49,121 bases of DNA from Acetivibrio sp. MSJd-27. Its GTDB lineage: Bacteria > Bacillota > Clostridia > UMGS1840 > HGM11507. The stretch lies in the NCBI RefSeq assembly GCF_018918095.1, contig NZ_JAHLPV010000017.1:1-49121 (forward strand), written 5' to 3'. The notes below the pieces were generated by a model, which saw nothing but the letters and a program-made list of their open reading frames with translations, was not told the DNA's origin and searched no databases. This document shows positions 5,088-47,781 of the stretch, piece by piece (position 1 is the stretch's first letter; each line of letters starts with the position of its first letter). The translations under genes and the position numbers were made by a program.

Positions 5088-6128
5088 ATGGAAAACCGGA
5101 TGGTTATTGAGGTTGCCGGCAACGAGATAAATGTTGTCTCCGATCAGCCGCCGGAGGTGATATGCAAGACCGCAGACGCCGTTGCGGACAGGATGCTTCA
5201 AATGATGGGAGGTAACAAAATGACTTCCGTCGTTGCGGCCATTCTGACGGCGATGAATATGATGGAAGAACTGGAAAAGGAGGAAGCAGCATCCGATCAG
5301 CTGCGCCGGGAGCTTTCCTCCTATGCTCAGGAAAATGCAGAGTATAAAAAGAAGATGGAGAATCTGGAAGAAATCCAGAAACAGCTTAAAAAAGAACTTG
5401 AAAACCTGAAAGTTGACTATCAGATTCGGGAAACCGCTGTAAAAGCACTGGAAGAAAAGGATGAAGAATTATCTCGGACGTGCCGTGAACTGGAAAGCTT
5501 ACGGGAAGGCCATCAGCGTTTCCGGCAGGAGACTCAGGGAAAACAGGAAAGTTTGAAAAAGGAGCTGGAGAATCTGCGTCTCCTTCTCACCGCGAAAGAA
5601 CAGGAAAAACAGACTTTGATTCAGGAAAAAGAACAGCTGAAAAGCGATATTGCATTGAAACAGGCAGAAGCGGACGAAACGGCAGCTTTGAAAAGCCAGC
5701 TTCAGGAGTGGAAAAACAAATGGGAGTCAGCAGGCCGGGAACTGGCGGCATACCGTCAAAGGGAGGCAGCGGCCGGAGCGCTTGGAGAGGAGCTTAACGC
5801 GGTGCGGAAATCCTTTGAAGAGAACCGTTTAAAGTATGAGGAAACGGCCGCGGAATTGGAGTTGCTTCGCCAAAAAAATGAGGTGAGGGAAGAGGAATAT
5901 CAAAGAGAGCGGGATGAATTGCAAAGCGAGCTCTCTCAGTATAAAATGATGTATGAAGAGTTGGCGGAGGAAGCGGAAGAATTCTATGAGGACGGCGAAT
6001 CAAAAGCCGAACTGCTGGAGTACAAAGCGAAATATGAGGCTTTGACTGAAGAATTTGAGGCCTTTAAAATCAATTATGCGCTGAAATCGAATGAATTGGA
6101 ACGGCTGAAAAAACAGATGAGAAGATAG
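5088..6128 (+). CDS. zapA: ZapA-domain protein with a long C-terminal coiled coil
   Basis: The first about 85 residues match the ZapA cell-division family: a VIEVAGNEINVVSDQ beta strand region, then a helix with ADAVADRMLQM and an AAILTAMNMMEELEK helix. ZapA binds and bundles FtsZ filaments at the division site. Normal ZapA proteins have about 85-110 residues, whereas this one has 346: residues about 70-345 are an almost unbroken Glu/Lys/Gln/Leu-rich coiled coil with no other domain. The strong AAGGGAGG site supports the ATG at 5088. It precedes the U32 gene and the shape cluster. A longer FtsZ cross-linker or tether is a reasonable inference; the fusion-like length is the odd point. Confidence 0.8.
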   Translation: MENRMVIEVAGNEINVVSDQPPEVICKTADAVADRMLQMMGGNKMTSVVAAILTAMNMMEELEKEEAASDQLRRELSSYAQENAEYKKKMENLEEIQKQLKKELENLKVDYQIRETAVKALEEKDEELSRTCRELESLREGHQRFRQETQGKQESLKKELENLRLLLTAKEQEKQTLIQEKEQLKSDIALKQAEADETAALKSQLQEWKNKWESAGRELAAYRQREAAAGALGEELNAVRKSFEENRLKYEETAAELELLRQKNEVREEEYQRERDELQSELSQYKMMYEELAEEAEEFYEDGESKAELLEYKAKYEALTEEFEAFKINYALKSNELERLKKQMRR

Positions 6129-6179
6129 AGAACAGATGGCGGAAAAGCTGTATCAGAATTTTGGAAAAGGATGAACAAG

Positions 6180-8243
6180 ATGGAATTGCTGTCACCGGCA
6201 GGCTCTTTTGAAGCGCTGAAGGCCGCTGTAAAATGCGGGGCGGACGCGGTTTATATGGGACTAAAACAATTTAACGCCCGGGCTTCCGCTGTCAATTTTG
6301 ATGAAAATGAGGTTTTCAAGGGGGTTACATACTGTAAGGAGCGGGGGAGAAAATGTTATATCACCCTCAATACCATACTAAAAGAAAAGGAAATTTCTGA
6401 TTTGATTCTTGTTTTAAAGGAACTAAATGATTTGCAGGTGGACGGGGTCATTGTGCAGGATTTGGGAATTGTCCGCTTGCTTGGCAAGATGGCTCCCGAG
6501 CTTCGCGTCCATGGCTCTACCCAGATGAGTGTGCACAATTCAGCCGGTGTAAAGTTCCTTGAAAAAATGGGAATCCGGAGGGTGGTTCTTTCCAGAGAAT
6601 TGCCTCTTTCGGAAATAGAAACAATCAAGCGGAAAACGGACGCCGAGCTGGAAGTATTCGGTCATGGAGCGCTTTGCGTTTGCTATTCCGGGCAATGTTA
6701 TATGTCCAGTTTCATCGGGGAGAGGAGCGGTAATCGCGGAAGGTGCGCTCAACCCTGTCGTCTGAAATATCATTTTGACGGACAGAAAAAGGACAGACAC
6801 CTGATGAGTCTAAGGGATCTGTCTCTTATCGAGCAGGTTGATGAACTGAAGCGTATCGGGGTGGATTCTTTAAAGATTGAAGGCCGTTTAAAGGGAGAAT
6901 ACTATGTTGCGGCAGTGACGGATATCTATCGCCGTGCGATTGACGGTGTTCCGATAACCCAAAAGGATTTGGAACTTCTGCACGGTGTATTTGATCGGGG
7001 AGGGTATACCAAGGGATATCTGATGGATGGTAAAGGGGCGGAAATGTTCTGCCATGAAAAAAAAGAAAATCCCTATTTGAATTTGGAAGCAAAGGCAGTG
7101 GAAACGTATCAGCCTGTTCTCCGGGAAGAAGACAGAACCTTGCTGACAAAGAAGAAAGTAGCGGCAAAAGTAAGCTTAAAGCTTGGACAGCCGCTGGAAC
7201 TCACCTTTTTTCTGGGAGAACATACGATTTCCGTGAAAGGGGAAATGCCGGCTCAACAGGCGGGAAATGCTCCTCTGGACAAAGAAAAACTGAGAAACAG
7301 TATTGGAAAACTGGGGGATACGCCTTATGAACTCGACTCCTTTTCCGCGGATCTGGAAGAAAATCTTTTTCTTCCCGCAAAGGAGGTAAACCTTGTGCGG
7401 CGAAAGGCTGTGCTGGCATTAACAGAGCAGATAGCGCATAAGTATCAATGGAACCCTTATTTCCCACAACGCGGCGAGCGCCAAAAGGCAAACCCAGAAT
7501 GGATTATCCAGGTGAGAAATGAAGAGCAGTATGCCTGGGCTTTGCGGCAGCAGGCGGCATATGTAATCGCCCCCTATCCGATTGTGCTTTCCTCCCAAAA
7601 ACAGATTCCGGAACGTACTATCCTCTCGCTGCCGCGGATACTGTTTGACCGGGAAATGCCTGCTTTGAAGAAGGCGTTGCAAACGCTAAGGGAGAAGGGG
7701 TTCCGGAAAGCGATGGCTTCTAATCTTTCCCACATAGAACTGCTTCGGGAATTTCCTGAAATCTGCTGTGACATGTTTTTCAATTTGACAAACAGTGAAG
7801 CGGTGAAACAGCTGGAGTTCTATGCGGGAAATCTGCTGTTTGCGGGACTTTCCGCGGAACTGAATATCAGAGAACTCGCAGAGGTGGTTTCCACTGTGCC
7901 GGCGGCGGTTCCGGTTTATGGGTATCTGCCGGTCATGGTGACAGAAAACTGTCTGAAAAAAACAGCATTGGGACACTGTAAAAAGGTTCCTTTGCAGCTG
8001 ATTGACCGCAAAGGGGAAGGCTTCTATGTGGATTGTCTGCCCGGATGCCGCAACGAGATTTTCAATTCTCACCCGCTGTTCATGGCGGGGCGGTTGAGGG
8101 AGATAAAAGGAATTGAATATTTTATTCTTTCTTTTACCTTTGAAACGGTGGAGCAATGTGAGAATATTATTTCCATGTATCGGCTGAACAAAGGAAACAT
8201 GGAGACTTTTACAAGAGGGCATTTCTACAGAGGTGTATTATGA
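6180..8243 (+). CDS. U32 family peptidase-like protein (RlhA/YrrO type, with DUF3656 region)
   Basis: A 687-residue protein of the U32 family. It starts with the family signature ELLSPAGSFEALKAAVKCGA and carries the conserved cysteine block, Cys166, Cys168, Cys173, Cys189 and Cys193, in GHGALCVCYSGQC and RGRCAQPCR. Several U32 members are now known to be tRNA or rRNA hydroxylation enzymes rather than proteases, so RNA modification is at least as likely as proteolysis. The C-terminal about 270 residues correspond to the DUF3656/collagenase-associated region. I prefer the ATG at 6180 over the one at 6171 because AAAAGG lies nine bases before 6180 and directly abuts 6171. The stop overlaps the next ATG by four bases (ATGA), so translation is probably coupled. 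Confidence 0.85.
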   Translation: MELLSPAGSFEALKAAVKCGADAVYMGLKQFNARASAVNFDENEVFKGVTYCKERGRKCYITLNTILKEKEISDLILVLKELNDLQVDGVIVQDLGIVRLLGKMAPELRVHGSTQMSVHNSAGVKFLEKMGIRRVVLSRELPLSEIETIKRKTDAELEVFGHGALCVCYSGQCYMSSFIGERSGNRGRCAQPCRLKYHFDGQKKDRHLMSLRDLSLIEQVDELKRIGVDSLKIEGRLKGEYYVAAVTDIYRRAIDGVPITQKDLELLHGVFDRGGYTKGYLMDGKGAEMFCHEKKENPYLNLEAKAVETYQPVLREEDRTLLTKKKVAAKVSLKLGQPLELTFFLGEHTISVKGEMPAQQAGNAPLDKEKLRNSIGKLGDTPYELDSFSADLEENLFLPAKEVNLVRRKAVLALTEQIAHKYQWNPYFPQRGERQKANPEWIIQVRNEEQYAWALRQQAAYVIAPYPIVLSSQKQIPERTILSLPRILFDREMPALKKALQTLREKGFRKAMASNLSHIELLREFPEICCDMFFNLTNSEAVKQLEFYAGNLLFAGLSAELNIRELAEVVSTVPAAVPVYGYLPVMVTENCLKKTALGHCKKVPLQLIDRKGEGFYVDCLPGCRNEIFNSHPLFMAGRLREIKGIEYFILSFTFETVEQCENIISMYRLNKGNMETFTRGHFYRGVL

Positions 8244-8608
8244 AGAAGGGGGATTGGATGATAGCATCTTGCATCCTTACGGTGATGCTTCTGTCTTTTG
8301 CGGCCTTCTGGGTTCCCGAGCGGGACGCACAAGAGCGTCAGGTTGTAATCATTGTGGATGGTACCGAGTATGCCAGATATAAACTTTCACCAAATTTTTC
8401 AGAAATCATTGAAATCAACACGCAGTTCGGGTATAATAAATTGGAAATTGACTGTGGAAAAATACGGATGCTTGACGCAAGCTGTGAAGATAAAATCGAT
8501 GTGAAGATGGGCACTATCGAAAAGGTGAATGAAACCATCATCTGTCTGCCGAATCGGGTCCTGGTGACCATCAAAGGGCAGAGTGAAGTCGACATGGTAT
8601 CCTATTGA
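8240..8608 (+). CDS. NusG domain II-containing membrane-anchored protein
   Basis: A 122-residue protein with an N-terminal membrane anchor (residues about 7-24) and an extracytoplasmic beta-rich domain. The pattern (VVIIVDGTEYARYKL, then IDCGKIRMLDASCEDKI, then IICLPNRVLVTI) is that of the stand-alone NusG domain II proteins of Firmicutes. These usually sit next to a Gx/HepT-type membrane protein, as here, often near electron-transport or flavin-transfer genes. It overlaps the U32 stop by four bases and the next ORF begins around its own stop, so the three genes form one operon. Function is not established. Confidence 0.8.
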   Translation: MKKGDWMIASCILTVMLLSFAAFWVPERDAQERQVVIIVDGTEYARYKLSPNFSEIIEINTQFGYNKLEIDCGKIRMLDASCEDKIDVKMGTIEKVNETIICLPNRVLVTIKGQSEVDMVSY

Positions 8609-41384: not shown

Positions 41385-41558
41385 TATCTATTTGGAAAAG
41401 TTTTTGTTTTTTTGAATCATAGGAAAGACTTTCCACAATAAATATAAACGATTTGTTAAAAGTCAAGAAAAAAGGTTTTTTCTGAAAACAAAATGTGGTA
41501 TGCTTAATAAATGTGCAAAAGGGAGATTGGAGTGCTATACAAGGAAGGAGCTTGACTT

Positions 41559-42698
41559 ATGAAAAAAGCATTTTTGCCGGTTTTGATTTCTGTGATGATG
41601 TTTTTCGGCAATATGGTTTCGGCTTTCGCCTCAGAAGGGGAAACTACCAGAGTTTCACTGGATGAAGCGATAACCCACGCTCTTGCAAACAGTCCATCCG
41701 TTTCGATAGCGGAGAGAAAAATAGAGCGGGATGAGGTGGCGTTGGAGGAAGCGGAATATAATATGCGTCAGGAAATCAAAAATCAAAAGAAACCCTATTA
41801 TTACAGTACAATACAGAACGTGCCGATAAGAAAGGGGTATTACACGGAGACTGCGAAAAGAAATCTGGAGATGTCCAAAATCAATCTGGAACAGACCAGA
41901 AAAAAGATAGAGTATGACGTTACCAGCGCTTACTATACTTTGAAAAATGCGCAGCAGTCTCATCAAATTGCCAAAGATGCTTATCAGCTTGCATCTGAAA
42001 ATTACAGGAAGGCACAAGTGCGGCTGGAAGTAGGCATGGCGACGCAGACAGATGTGCTGACCGCAAAAAATTATATGGACAGTTCCCAATACAGCGTGGA
42101 CAAGGCGGAACGTGCCGCTAATCTTGCTTTTTTACAGTTCTGCAATGCAACTTATTATGATGCGGAGGGTTCCTATCAGCTGACGGATAAACTGGATGAG
42201 TCCGGGTTCACGACACCGGATTTGGAGGAGGGAATCAAGGCAGGTCTGGAAAACAGAACAGAGATCACAACGGTCAAAAATAAAAGGGATTTGGATGCGC
42301 TTTACTTGGAATGTGTAAGCGCCCTGTATCTACCCAATACGTTTATGTATCGGAAAGCGGATTTGCAGGCGAAAGAGAGCGCCCTTTCCGTCACAGATAC
42401 AGAGAACAGTATCCGGCTGGGAATTACAAAGGATTACTATGACTTGCTGTCATCCTATGATAATATTGCAGTTCAGAAAGGACAGCAGGAGCTGACAGAA
42501 AAACAATACAGTGATATTTTGGCAAAGGAAGAAGTCGGAATGGCCACTTCCGCTGAAGTGACTGACAGTCTGAACAAGAGCGCACAGGCGGAGCTGAGTT
42601 ATACCCAGGCAATTCTCACGTTCCGTATGGCGGAATTAAAGTATAACAGTGATATAGGCTATGGATTAAATAGTGCTAGTCTGATGGGAGTTTATTGA
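41559..42698 (+). CDS. TolC-family protein, apparently without beta-barrel segments
   Basis: A 379-residue exported protein with signal peptide (about 1-25, ending AFAS). It has the two-fold TolC/OEP layout: repeat 1 at about 32-205 and repeat 2 at about 220-370, each with paired long helices and the loop motif 'EVGMATQTDVLTAK' (157-170) or 'EVGMATSAEVTDSL' (325-338). In outer-membrane TolC the two helices of each repeat are interrupted by two transmembrane beta strands; here the linkers are only about 20 residues (77-97 and 250-270) and do not look like barrel strands. The periplasmic tunnel-like helices seem kept while the outer-membrane anchor is lost. First gene of the efflux operon, one base before the adaptor gene. 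GGAAGGAG site. Confidence 0.8.
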   Translation: MKKAFLPVLISVMMFFGNMVSAFASEGETTRVSLDEAITHALANSPSVSIAERKIERDEVALEEAEYNMRQEIKNQKKPYYYSTIQNVPIRKGYYTETAKRNLEMSKINLEQTRKKIEYDVTSAYYTLKNAQQSHQIAKDAYQLASENYRKAQVRLEVGMATQTDVLTAKNYMDSSQYSVDKAERAANLAFLQFCNATYYDAEGSYQLTDKLDESGFTTPDLEEGIKAGLENRTEITTVKNKRDLDALYLECVSALYLPNTFMYRKADLQAKESALSVTDTENSIRLGITKDYYDLLSSYDNIAVQKGQQELTEKQYSDILAKEEVGMATSAEVTDSLNKSAQAELSYTQAILTFRMAELKYNSDIGYGLNSASLMGVY

Positions 42699-42699
42699 G

Positions 42700-44214
42700 A
42701 TGAAGAGTAAGAAAACAGTGAGTATATGCCTTGCGCTGATAGTTTGTGCTGGAATCGCGGGATGCGGAGCAAAGGAAACAGCCACTCAGCCGGATAACCG
42801 TACACCGGTGGAAGTGACTTCAATGACCAAACAGAACATGGTGGAATATTATACAGCAAGCGGTGTTGCGGCGCCCATTCAGGAGATTGATATTCTGCCT
42901 AAAACGCCTTCCAAGATATTGAATACATATGCGGAAGTAGGAGATACCGTGAACGCGGGAGCTGTTTTGTGTGCATTGGATGCGTCGGATATTTCCAGCC
43001 AGCTGAATCAGGTGGATGCGCAAATTAACCAATCCAGAGCCGGAGTTACCGTTTCCCAAGTGAATAAGGAGAAAGCCGGCGCGACGGGAAAAGAACAGGC
43101 GTTAAGCCAGGCACAGTCTGCTGTAGACCAGGCACAGAACGGTGTAGACCAGGCGCAGACCGCTTTGAAGAATGCGGGAACATCCGTGGCGCAGGCGCAG
43201 GCGGCAGTGGATAATGCCAGACAGACAATGGAAAGTGCGCAAAAGGATTATGAAAATAATAAGACTTTGTTGGAGTCCGGTGTGATTTCCCAAAGTGTAC
43301 TGGACGGTGTCAAATCAAAATATGACAGCGCTGTTTTTGCCTATGACAATGCGGTAAGAAGTCTGGGAAATGCGCAAACAGCTCTTGAAGCGGCACGGAA
43401 GACAGAATCCAACGCAAAAAAATCCTATGATACAGCAGTGAATAATTACCATTTGACAGAGAAAGCGCAGCAGGATAATATCGCTGCCGCCAATGCGCAG
43501 TATGATCAGGCTGTTGCAGGAGTCGGGGCTTTGCAGGCCCAGAGGGACAATCTTCAGACAAAACTGGGAGAAATGCAGATTACCTCTCCGATCCAGGGAA
43601 TTGTTGTGACAAGAAATGCCAAGACAGGAGAGTTTGCATCTCAGCAAGCGCCTCTGTATACCGTCGTGGATTTGTCAAAGGTTTTGATCAACGTGACCGT
43701 TGGGGAGCAGATGATCAACAAATTGGCTCCGGGACAAAACATAAAGGTTCAATTTCGCTCATTGGAAGACCGTCTGTTTGAGGGAACGGTTGACACCATT
43801 TCCTATCAGATTGATTTCAAAAAGGCAGGCTACTGCGTCAATGTATTGGTGGATAACCCTGAAAATCTGATCAAATCTGGAATGTTTGCAGAAGTAAAAA
43901 TAGCGGTTAGCGAAAAGCCCGATGTGTTTGCTATAGACAGTAAATTGTTGTTTAATGACAACGAAAAGTATTATGTCTATACGGTTGACACAGAAAATAA
44001 AGCAGTGAAAAAAGAAGTTCAAATTGGTATCAAAAATGATGAATTTGCCGAAGTGATCGGCGGCTTAGAAACATCCGACCGCATTGTTTCGAAAGGACAG
44101 GCAAATTTGATCCCCGGCATGGAAGTGAAAATTGTAGGCGGTGAAACGCCGGCGCCGGATAGTATGCCGGTCAATGGGGATGGAACATCAGAAAGCGAAG
44201 GGGTATCACTATGA
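42700..44214 (+). CDS. RND efflux membrane-fusion (adaptor) lipoprotein with long coiled coil
   Basis: A 504-residue HlyD/AcrA-type adaptor. The signal ends in a lipobox (GIAGC, Cys near 23), so it is a lipoprotein. Order of parts: lipoyl half (about 55-95, ILPKTPSKILNTYAEVGDTV), a very long alpha hairpin (about 100-290) rich in Ala, Gln and Asp with repeated DQAQ/AQ steps, second lipoyl half (MQITSPIQGIVVTRNAKTGEF), beta barrel (about 325-400) and membrane-proximal domain. Usual adaptors have 370-400 residues and a shorter hairpin. Starts one base after the TolC-like stop and overlaps the permease start by four bases. Confidence 0.9.
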   Translation: MKSKKTVSICLALIVCAGIAGCGAKETATQPDNRTPVEVTSMTKQNMVEYYTASGVAAPIQEIDILPKTPSKILNTYAEVGDTVNAGAVLCALDASDISSQLNQVDAQINQSRAGVTVSQVNKEKAGATGKEQALSQAQSAVDQAQNGVDQAQTALKNAGTSVAQAQAAVDNARQTMESAQKDYENNKTLLESGVISQSVLDGVKSKYDSAVFAYDNAVRSLGNAQTALEAARKTESNAKKSYDTAVNNYHLTEKAQQDNIAAANAQYDQAVAGVGALQAQRDNLQTKLGEMQITSPIQGIVVTRNAKTGEFASQQAPLYTVVDLSKVLINVTVGEQMINKLAPGQNIKVQFRSLEDRLFEGTVDTISYQIDFKKAGYCVNVLVDNPENLIKSGMFAEVKIAVSEKPDVFAIDSKLLFNDNEKYYVYTVDTENKAVKKEVQIGIKNDEFAEVIGGLETSDRIVSKGQANLIPGMEVKIVGGETPAPDSMPVNGDGTSESEGVSL

Positions 44215-47200
44215 ATTTCTTTCGCGTTCTGGTCAGAAAACCGGTTACGGTTTTAATGATAATTATTATTGTACTGCTGTTCGGTACGGTCTCCATCCTT
44301 AATATTAATCAGGAATTTCTTCCGGATATCTCAATGCCGTATTTGATGATCTCCACATCCTATCCGGGCGCGAGCCCGGAGCAGGTGGAAAGTATTGTTA
44401 CCAAGCCTCTGGAAGATATGGTCAGTACGGTTCCCAACTTCAAGAAGGTCACCTCCACCTCATCGAATGGAATTTCAATGATTCAAGTGGAATTTGCGGG
44501 GGGAACCAACATGGATTCCACCATCCTAAAGGCGAGGGAAAAGATAGATATGGTGACAAAAACCTTTCCCGACGCGGTGCAGGATCCTTCCATGATAGAA
44601 ATGTCTGTGGACGCCATTCCCGTTATGCAGCTGGTTCTTTCCGGCGGGCAGAATGAGGAGGAACTGGGGCGTATTGCGGAGAATGTCTATCAGAAGCAGC
44701 TGGAACGGATTGGCGGGGTTGCCCGGCTTGATATGATGGGAAATGAGAAATACGAGATCAGTGTTGAACTGATCAAGGAGCGGACAGAGGGATTAGGAAT
44801 TTCCGTTTCACAGATCGCCTCCGTTTTGCGCACGGAGGATGTTTCACAGCCTGCGGGGGATGTGCTGGAAGGGATGAATGAGCTTTCGGTCACAACAACC
44901 TCTGAGCTTGGTAGTATTGAGGATATCAAAAATACAGTCATACAGACGGCAAATGGTCCGGTCAAGCTGTCGGATATCGCGGTGGTTTCCAATAAGCCGA
45001 AGGCAAGTGATTTCCGTGTGACAATCGGGGATACCAATGCGGTTTACATTAATCTGTATAAACAGCCGGATTCCAGTATTACAGATCTTTCGGCAGAAGT
45101 GCGCGGGAAACTGGCGGAGATCAAATCACAATATGCCGGGGTGGACTATGTTGTTGTATTTGATCAGGCGGAATATATCCAGCAGTCGCTGGATTCCATT
45201 TTGGAAAGCGGCATTCTGGGCTTAGTACTCGCTTTGATTATTCTTTTCCTATTTCTGCGCAATGTGAGACTGACTATGATTATCGGGGTGGCAATGCCAA
45301 TTTCTATTATTGCCTCCTTCATTATGATGTACTTTTCTGATATTTCCATCAACACGATGTCCCTGTTTGGTTTGGTACTGGGGATTGGAATGCTGGTGGA
45401 TAATTCGGTCGTTGTGCTGGAAAATATACAGCGTTATCTGGAAATGGGCTGCGATTCCAGAGAGGCTGCAATAAAAGGTGTAAGCGAGGTGGCGATGGCG
45501 ATCACGGCTTCCACCCTCACAACGATTGCTGTTTTCTCACCGCTTTTATTCCTAAAGGATAATATTTATATCTCGATGTTTAAAGAGGTTGGCTTGACCA
45601 TTACTTATTCCTTGCTGGCTTCGCTGGTGGTTGCGCTGACATTGGTTCCGGTAGCGGCAGCCAGCTGGCTGAAGGTGGATACCATTGTCCGGAAGCAAAC
45701 AACGACAAAAGAAAGTTTCCTTGCAAAATTTTATGCCGGTGCACTCTCAAAATGTCTGGGACACAAGAAATTGGTGATATTTGGTTCCTTGGCGGCGTTT
45801 CTTCTGAGTTTGGGTTCCTTTGCAGTTGTCGGCTCAGAATTGTTTCCTGCAATGGACAGCGCTACTTTTAATGTGACCTATACCATGCCGGATGGAACCA
45901 GTGTAGACGAGACGAAACGGGAAGGCGAAAGGATTGCCGCTATAGCGGGGCAGGCGCTTTCCGGAATGATGGAGCCGGATCATGTTGTCAATCTTGTGGG
46001 AAACGGTGGAGATAACATCGGTCAGTTAACCTATCTGTTCCCTCCTCGGGATCAGCGAGACTATACAATAGACGAATTGTCGGCTGCAGTGAAGAAAAGC
46101 TTTGCGGACTATGCCGGTCCGAAAATCGAGGTTTCAGCTGCGGACGTGGGCAGTATGATGTATGGAGGGGGCAGCGCTCAAATTACCATTAAGCTGTATG
46201 GGGATGAGCAGAATGTGCTGACCGATCTGTCGGATACAGTAGAGGCAAAGCTCCAGCAGGTTGAAGGAATCACCTCCACCGCCTCCAGTCTGGATAAAAA
46301 GACGCCGGAGGTCAAGATTATGATTGACCGTCAGAGAGCGGCCAACTATGGATTATCCCCCCACACCATTGCGGATACCTTAAAGACCATGCTTCAGGGA
46401 AGCACGGCGGCCTCTATCACGGTGGACAACAAGGACACTGATTTAACGGTACGGCTGTCTGAGGCTTACACGAAGCAGATGAATGACATCAAGTTTTTAA
46501 GCATTACCAATTCCCAAGGACTTACCATTCCTTTGAGTGAACTGGCGGATATTAAAGTGGTAAATTCTCCGGTTTCGATTGCCAGAGAAGACTCCATGCG
46601 TCAGATCACGGTGACAGGTACGGTAGAAGGGAAAACCATTGGCCAGGTGACGGAAGACGTAAAGTTGATGATGAAAGATATTCCGGTGGAAGCTGGATAC
46701 AAAATGGAATTGGCAGGAACTTCAAAGGATATGGAGGATTCCATGAACGATCTGCTGCTCATGGTGGTAGTGGCTATTTTGCTGGTTTATATGATTATCG
46801 CATGCCAATTCGAGTCGCTGCTTCATCCCTTTATCATTATTTTCAGCATCCCCCTTTCTATTATTGGGGTTGCGCTTTCCTTGCTGCTGACAGGAACACC
46901 TATATCACTTCCGGGAATGGTGGGAATTGTCACGTTAGTGGGTGTTGTTGTAAATAATGCAATCGTGTTGATTGATTTTGTAAACCGTCAGCGTGCAGAT
47001 GGGATGGAGCTCAATGAAGCGGTAGTAAGCGCGGCAAGAATCCGTACACGGCCTATCTTCATCACGACTCTTACCACAGTACTCGGATTGCTTCCCATTG
47101 CGCTTTCTCAGGGAGTCGGTGCGGAGAGAATGCAGCCTTATGCCATTGTGGTAATCGGCGGACTTCTTTTCTCAACATTGCTGACTCTGATTGTGATTCC

Positions 47201-47294
47201 AATTCTGTATGTTGTTCTGGAGGACAGGAAAGCAAAACGGAAAAGAAAAAAACAGCTTAAAATAGAGAAAAAACTTCAAAAAAATCATGAGTAA
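44211..47294 (+). CDS. RND-superfamily efflux permease (AcrB/HAE-like)
   Basis: A 1027-residue proton-driven exporter of the RND superfamily: twelve membrane segments and two large external loops, in two similar halves. Recognisable stretches are the N-terminal FFRVLVRKPVTVLMIII, PGASPEQVESIVTKPLE, the fourth-segment GLVLGIGMLVDNSVVVLENI (first Asp of the proton relay kept, second position Asn as in many HAE relatives) and the C-terminal GVVVNNAIVLIDFVN. The ATG overlaps the adaptor stop (ATGA). Substrates unknown; drugs, lipids or peptides are all possible. Third gene of the TolC-like/adaptor/permease operon. Confidence 0.94.
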   Translation: MNFFRVLVRKPVTVLMIIIIVLLFGTVSILNINQEFLPDISMPYLMISTSYPGASPEQVESIVTKPLEDMVSTVPNFKKVTSTSSNGISMIQVEFAGGTNMDSTILKAREKIDMVTKTFPDAVQDPSMIEMSVDAIPVMQLVLSGGQNEEELGRIAENVYQKQLERIGGVARLDMMGNEKYEISVELIKERTEGLGISVSQIASVLRTEDVSQPAGDVLEGMNELSVTTTSELGSIEDIKNTVIQTANGPVKLSDIAVVSNKPKASDFRVTIGDTNAVYINLYKQPDSSITDLSAEVRGKLAEIKSQYAGVDYVVVFDQAEYIQQSLDSILESGILGLVLALIILFLFLRNVRLTMIIGVAMPISIIASFIMMYFSDISINTMSLFGLVLGIGMLVDNSVVVLENIQRYLEMGCDSREAAIKGVSEVAMAITASTLTTIAVFSPLLFLKDNIYISMFKEVGLTITYSLLASLVVALTLVPVAAASWLKVDTIVRKQTTTKESFLAKFYAGALSKCLGHKKLVIFGSLAAFLLSLGSFAVVGSELFPAMDSATFNVTYTMPDGTSVDETKREGERIAAIAGQALSGMMEPDHVVNLVGNGGDNIGQLTYLFPPRDQRDYTIDELSAAVKKSFADYAGPKIEVSAADVGSMMYGGGSAQITIKLYGDEQNVLTDLSDTVEAKLQQVEGITSTASSLDKKTPEVKIMIDRQRAANYGLSPHTIADTLKTMLQGSTAASITVDNKDTDLTVRLSEAYTKQMNDIKFLSITNSQGLTIPLSELADIKVVNSPVSIAREDSMRQITVTGTVEGKTIGQVTEDVKLMMKDIPVEAGYKMELAGTSKDMEDSMNDLLLMVVVAILLVYMIIACQFESLLHPFIIIFSIPLSIIGVALSLLLTGTPISLPGMVGIVTLVGVVVNNAIVLIDFVNRQRADGMELNEAVVSAARIRTRPIFITTLTTVLGLLPIALSQGVGAERMQPYAIVVIGGLLFSTLLTLIVIPILYVVLEDRKAKRKRKKQLKIEKKLQKNHE

Positions 47295-47367: not shown

Positions 47368-47781
47368 ATGAAATCAAAACTGAAGAAGGGGATCCTTTTT
47401 TTGATGACAGCTTCTGTTTTACTGACTTTCTGTTCCTGTTCCAGGAAGGACGGGGAGGGTGTTTCAGAAGAGGGGACAAAACAGCCGGACGCCACAGCGC
47501 AGGCAACCGAAGCTCCTACAGCGGAGCCGACGGAAAAACCGGAGGATTTTTCTCTGACAACCACCCTGCCGGATGGCAGAAACCGGATTGAAGCGAGAGT
47601 CCTGAGCGTTATTAACGATAAAACGTATAAGGTGAAAACGCAAAACGGAGAAGAGGAGATCAAGCTTTCCGACAAGGTGAGCAGCAATGCAAAAATTCTG
47701 GGCGTAAAGGAGCAGTCTAAAATCATTGTCACCATCAAAGACGGTGTGGCGGACAGCATTGAACTGGTAACGAGCGAGTAA
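47368..47781 (+). CDS. small lipoprotein of unknown function
   Basis: A 137-residue exported protein: signal with lipobox-like FCSC (Cys22 or Cys24), then a low-complexity linker rich in Ala, Thr, Pro and Glu (about 30-62), then a small beta domain (about 65-135) with RIEARVLSVINDKTYKVKTQ, resembling an OB-like barrel. GAGGTG before the ATG. It lies 74 bases after the permease gene and may be its last operon member or separate; a TATAAT near 47338 suggests possible own transcription. Confidence 0.7.
   Translation: MKSKLKKGILFLMTASVLLTFCSCSRKDGEGVSEEGTKQPDATAQATEAPTAEPTEKPEDFSLTTTLPDGRNRIEARVLSVINDKTYKVKTQNGEEEIKLSDKVSSNAKILGVKEQSKIIVTIKDGVADSIELVTSE

Follow-up and report, generated by a model that had tools for sequence, protein, structure and literature searches.

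TolC-like proteins of monoderm Firmicutes were described by Stubenrauch et al. (2022), many of them encoded in operons with an adaptor and a transporter, and in the absence of BamA (PMC8809574). The TolC-like protein of C. difficile shows an omission in its barrel domain and a hydrophilic surface; it was proposed to sit in the S-layer, and two studies cited in the same paper detected it in secretomes together with the S-layer protein (PMC8809574). Barrel-less TolC-like proteins in monoderms are thus already published and are not new here, and the suggestion of a different pump design, made from a sequence-only reading of the locus described below, had been anticipated by that report. The case bears on whether, and in what manner, RND pumps can operate in cells that lack an outer membrane, and on the transition from diderm to monoderm in Bacillota, a standing question (PMC5007114).

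The window, i.e. the whole stretch of 49,121 nucleotides that was analysed, carries on its forward strand an operon in which a gene of the TolC/OEP family is followed by an adaptor gene and a gene for an RND transporter. The first gene (41559..42698), preceded by a purine-rich ribosome-binding site, AAGGAAGGAGC (41541..41551), encodes a barrel-less protein of 379 residues. Residues 1-25 (41559..41633) read as a Sec-type signal peptide with a putative cleavage site between VSAFA and S and with no lipobox cysteine. Pfam OEP (PF02321) matches the protein in two repeats (E 6.7e-28, 98.2 bits, cut-off 22), and the TolC subfamily is its best fit among the NCBI families, at a score under that subfamily's cut-off. 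One base later begins the adaptor gene (42700..44214), whose product is a lipoprotein of the membrane-fusion type (MFP; 504 residues, lipobox IAGC) matching HlyD_D23 and RND_mfp TIGR01730 (5e-62, 209.7 bits, cut-off 94.9). The third gene (44211..47294), with a start that overlaps the adaptor stop by 4 bases, encodes a full-length AcrB-like, HAE-1-type inner-membrane transporter of 1027 residues (ACR_tran, 773.5 bits, 3.8e-232, profile 2-1020 of 1021). A lipoprotein-like ORF of 137 residues without a Pfam match lies after it (47368-47781). Elsewhere in the genome no OEP match was found, except a weak one by the operon's own adaptor.

In an alignment with 124 other OEPs we counted the residues between fixed anchors flanking the two hairpin sites of TolC. 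The linkers measured in this way are 22 and 1 residues long in the window protein, those of E. coli TolC being of 41 and 51; they are 33 and 41 in CusC and 31-34 and 41-44 in six Bacteroidota TolCs. As the second linker is of 6 residues or fewer in 48 of 51 homologues from the window's class, its shortness is not due to chance. The structure was predicted by AlphaFold2 from a 30-row alignment of the window protein and its relatives, barrel-less and barrel-bearing mixed, giving pLDDT 88.6 and pTM 0.81 (46.7 for pLDDT from the single sequence, without alignment). The model consists of helices at residues 46-75, 94-157, 163-198, 234-256, 262-325 and 331-366, and its only strands are two of 3 residues each (E30-32 and E206-208), so that no beta-strand is predicted at the TolC hairpin sites and the monomer shows no barrel of four strands per protomer. 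At the site of the first hairpin the model has an 18-residue loop with a short helix (linker 1, residues 76-93, 41784..41837), the charged and aromatic QKKPYYYSTIQNVPIRKG, and at the second, where the hairpin is wholly missing, a 5-residue loop, YLPNT (linker 2, residues 257-261, 42327..42341). The sequence-only reading, which had inferred the loss of the barrel, had put both linkers at about 20 charged or aromatic residues; this stands for linker 1 but not for linker 2. Foldseek returned 44 matches with E up to 0.001, every one a TolC-family chain, and VIA-align superposed the model on TolC (1EK9) with Z 26.8 over 329 residues. Alignment and predicted fold together confirm the window protein as a TolC homologue without an outer-membrane barrel.

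Four other monoderm OEPs (L050:6535-8040, L066:6899-8398, L065:4470-6047 and L067:6262-7686) carry 67-129 residues at the first-hairpin site, and these inserts are mostly charged and coiled-coil-like, as if a helical extension had replaced the barrel.

The lower end of the protein is kept. Both repeats carry an adaptor-contact tip, EVGMAT, at residues 157-162 (42027..42044) and 325-330 (42531..42548), as had been noted before; in E. coli TolC the two tips align with RFNVGLVAITD and GYSVGTRTIVD. In the adaptor, the hairpin is of great length: measured from alignment anchors it spans residues 95-295 (42982..43584), 201 proline-free residues, compared to 81 in AcrA, 95 in MacA, 127 in EmrA and 67 in Bacteroidota, the median of monoderm adaptors being 133. 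At 1.5 A per residue this corresponds to about 150 A versus about 60 A. Its tip, NNKTLLESGVISQSVLDGVK (43255..43314), contains an L-x6-S-x3-L[DE] motif, and the tip stretch LLESGVISQSVLD fits the motif of AcrA, MacA and many monoderm adaptors. As the lower tips of the OEP are like those of TolC and the adaptor has kept its tip motif, docking of the adaptor on the OEP tip to tip would be the natural reading. It could be argued that the window protein has ceased to form a tunnel and has no other role than that of a spacer or of a coiled coil that stabilises the adaptor, considering that adaptors score weakly as OEPs and that coiled coils resemble one another. We find this very improbable, since the protein retains both of its repeats and both tips, along with the monomer fold of TolC over the 329 superposed residues, and since many monoderm adaptors conserve the tip motif.

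Across the loci that we compared, adaptor hairpin lengths are stepped (48, 67-68, 79-81, 93-95, 131-133, 145-147, 184-205 and 239 residues; L045-L084, L132-L171), a pattern that the addition of whole heptads to both helices would produce.

The genome of the host is 98.8% complete and, at that completeness, neither Omp85 nor LpxC was found in it, whereas Spo0A is present. The host therefore looks like a single-membrane Bacillota, probably spore-forming, in line with the earlier view of the genome; the searches advised for BamA and LPS genes, made here for Omp85 and LpxC, turned up neither. None of the 391 genomes of the window's class reached the Omp85 cut-off; as 75 of 299 genomes of the phylum did reach it, the test is able to detect diderms. 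OEP matches occur in 122 of the 391 genomes of the class and two or more in 106, tallies in which some matches are to adaptors alone (the adaptor of the window itself scores 26.7 bits), and operons of the order MFP-RND-OEP or OEP-MFP-RND recur across the class.

The genome, of 3 Mb, also has at least 150 matches to SLH domains, and related genomes of the same order are SLH-rich as well. Such abundance would suit the proposal of Stubenrauch et al. that the upper end of the TolC-like protein is docked in the S-layer protein lattice, the S-layer replacing the outer membrane, as would the secretome findings in C. difficile. Within the class, SLH domains were found in 97 of the 106 genomes that have at least two OEP matches versus 149 of the 285 others (odds ratio 9.8, kinship ignored), an association that may come from shared ancestry. 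The other nine of the 106 lack SLH domains, though other S-layer anchors are possible. As to the window OEP itself, no cell-wall or S-layer binding domain was found in it; with both hairpins gone and only 18 residues in linker 1, it offers no obvious docking domain. We therefore regard docking in the S-layer as possible but doubtful.

Barrel-less OEPs are also found in diderm Bacillota, beside full TolC. All 34 Omp85-positive genomes of the phylum that were searched have OEPs, and in 32 of 40 loci, from at least 22 of these genomes, a short OEP whose linkers measure 3-5 and 0-1 residues, and which is hence more fully barrel-less than the window protein, occurs together with a full-barrel OEP. 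Every diderm short OEP that we found shares its locus with a full-barrel one. The loci were picked partly for showing two OEP matches, so the share of paired loci is not to be read as a frequency. The tight order is not a product of this choice: in 25 of the 32 loci the short gene lies directly 5' of the long one, overlapping it or at most 30 bases away (L139, for example, has the short gene at 5719-6777 and the long gene at 6774-8384). RND examples (L137, L139, L142 and L153) have the order MFP-RND-short-long, and monoderm operons often have MFP-RND-OEP. Paired genes (L132-L165) occur in RND pumps and in others that resemble MacB-type ABC systems. Among monoderms, L060, L063, L070 and L076 have two adjacent barrel-less OEP genes (about 365 and 384-416 residues) with an adaptor and ORFs sized like an ABC ATPase and an FtsX-like permease.

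The beta region of the paired long OEPs is larger than that of unpaired ones, with a median of 114 versus 84 residues (p 0.0009; L132-L166), and the roughly 30 extra residues may amount to one more hairpin. If so, two long protomers and one short would, speculatively, add up to the 12 strands and 12 helices of a TolC trimer. We also considered whether full TolC could stack on the diderm short OEPs by way of upper loops that imitate the tips of adaptors. The idea found no support: of the 32 short OEPs, only 3 were matched in their upper loops by an adaptor-tip profile, the matches otherwise falling at the lower tips or in other places. Our tentative proposal, which we hold at a little below even odds, is that the diderm short OEP is a distinct fourth pump component that acts jointly with a TolC bearing a barrel, whether it adds a further segment to the tunnel or co-assembles with that TolC, and that monoderms inherited the pump with the short OEP while the barrel-bearing one was lost with the outer membrane. 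A search of the literature, thin on subscription journals, found no publication on diderm Firmicutes in which a short and a long TolC gene are paired, and barrel-less OEPs beside full TolC in diderm Bacillota are new as far as that literature goes.

That the barrel was lost for want of an outer membrane, as the sequence-only reading had implied, fits poorly with these pairs in diderm genomes. Because diderm Bacillota hold barrel-less OEPs next to full TolC, barrel loss is probably not simply a result of losing the outer membrane. The grouping of the proteins tends the same way, the AU test not being decisive. The linkers were left out of the trees. A larger quick tree joined the window protein and almost every monoderm OEP to 19 of 32 diderm short OEPs (SH-aLRT 84). 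In the other tree, a careful one of 63 rows, 13 monoderm OEPs form a clade with the window protein (100/99), the nearest outgroup of which is made up of diderm short OEPs (95/85); all short OEPs lie on the monoderm side (95/77), along with five paired long ones, and beyond it come the OEPs of E. coli and Bacteroidota and the unpaired long ones. Support is moderate, and it places the window protein nearer to diderm short OEPs than to canonical TolC, though not decisively.

The alternative is that the window OEP derives from a canonical, barrel-bearing TolC, monoderm Clostridia having shed the barrel independently once the outer membrane was gone and the diderm short OEPs representing a separate loss. 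Uniting monoderm with full-barrel long OEPs costs 18.3 log units, at a p of 0.13 by which such a tree is not rejected, as compared to 2.5 log units (p 0.43) for monoderm and diderm short OEPs as one clade; a clade of short OEPs alone costs 11.8 (p 0.24). Linker 1 speaks for separate losses, being mostly of 11-36 residues in monoderms versus 3-5 in diderm short OEPs, whereas a second linker of one residue is common to most proteins of both groups and the best tree has diderm short OEPs as the nearest outside group. Taken together, independent loss appears unlikely to us. As the AU tests reject none of the three groupings, we consider a shared barrel-less ancestry of monoderm and diderm short OEPs likely and do not claim a single origin.

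Based on these data we propose, with a probability of roughly two in three, that the operon codes for an RND pump like AcrAB-TolC in a single-membrane Bacillota, with a long adaptor and a barrel-less tunnel making up a conduit across the wall. The proton-driven RND transporter would hand its substrate to the lipid-anchored adaptor with its very long coiled-coil hairpin, the L-x6-S tips of which would dock on the lower VGMAT tips of a trimer of TolC fold, in which the helical tunnel is retained and the membrane barrel is missing. The conduit would end in, or at the outer face of, the peptidoglycan or S-layer rather than in an outer membrane. We infer the trimer, the docking, the crossing of the wall, the substrate and the direction of evolution from the locus and its relatives; passage through a thick wall is made more plausible by the length of the adaptor hairpin, whereas the lack of a cell-wall or S-layer binding domain in the OEP counts against the proposal. 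With the size of AcrAB-TolC as the yardstick, we estimate for the conduit a possible reach of roughly 30 nm from the membrane, which would suffice to span much of a Gram-positive wall. The tunnel would be part of the wider barrel-less OEP group found in diderm Bacillota beside full TolC, and monoderms probably kept the barrel-less component without its barrel-bearing partner. A barrel-less OEP paired with a real TolC in diderms would then be a possible intermediate, in which one part of the pump was lost rather than the pump redesigned. It predicts four-component pumps in diderm Bacillota, and we consider the barrel-less TolC partner of the diderm relatives a more interesting lead than the monoderm case.

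Compared with known systems, the window case fits the pumps of Stubenrauch et al. (PMC8809574) in having a TolC-like gene with a barrel-domain omission in a tripartite pump operon, a monoderm host without BamA and genes for putative S-layer proteins, the last seen here as genes only, through the SLH matches. It differs in that both hairpins are absent here by alignment and AlphaFold2, whereas that study used Phyre2 homology modelling and modelled a hydrophilic barrel domain. With E. coli TolC (1EK9), OprM and CusC the window protein shares the two OEP repeats, the long-helix monomer fold, the lower tip motifs and the adaptor and RND partners; it differs from them in lacking the beta-hairpins and hence the barrel, and its host in lacking Omp85 and LpxC. 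Of the features of an HAE-1 tripartite pump, the full-length RND transporter and the adaptor with its tip motif are present and the barrel-bearing outer membrane channel is absent. The diderm short OEPs differ in their shorter linker 1, in the full-barrel OEP gene of the same locus and in a host with Omp85, and they resemble the window protein in having OEP repeats without hairpins, lower tips that are kept and a place beside adaptor and RND or ABC genes.
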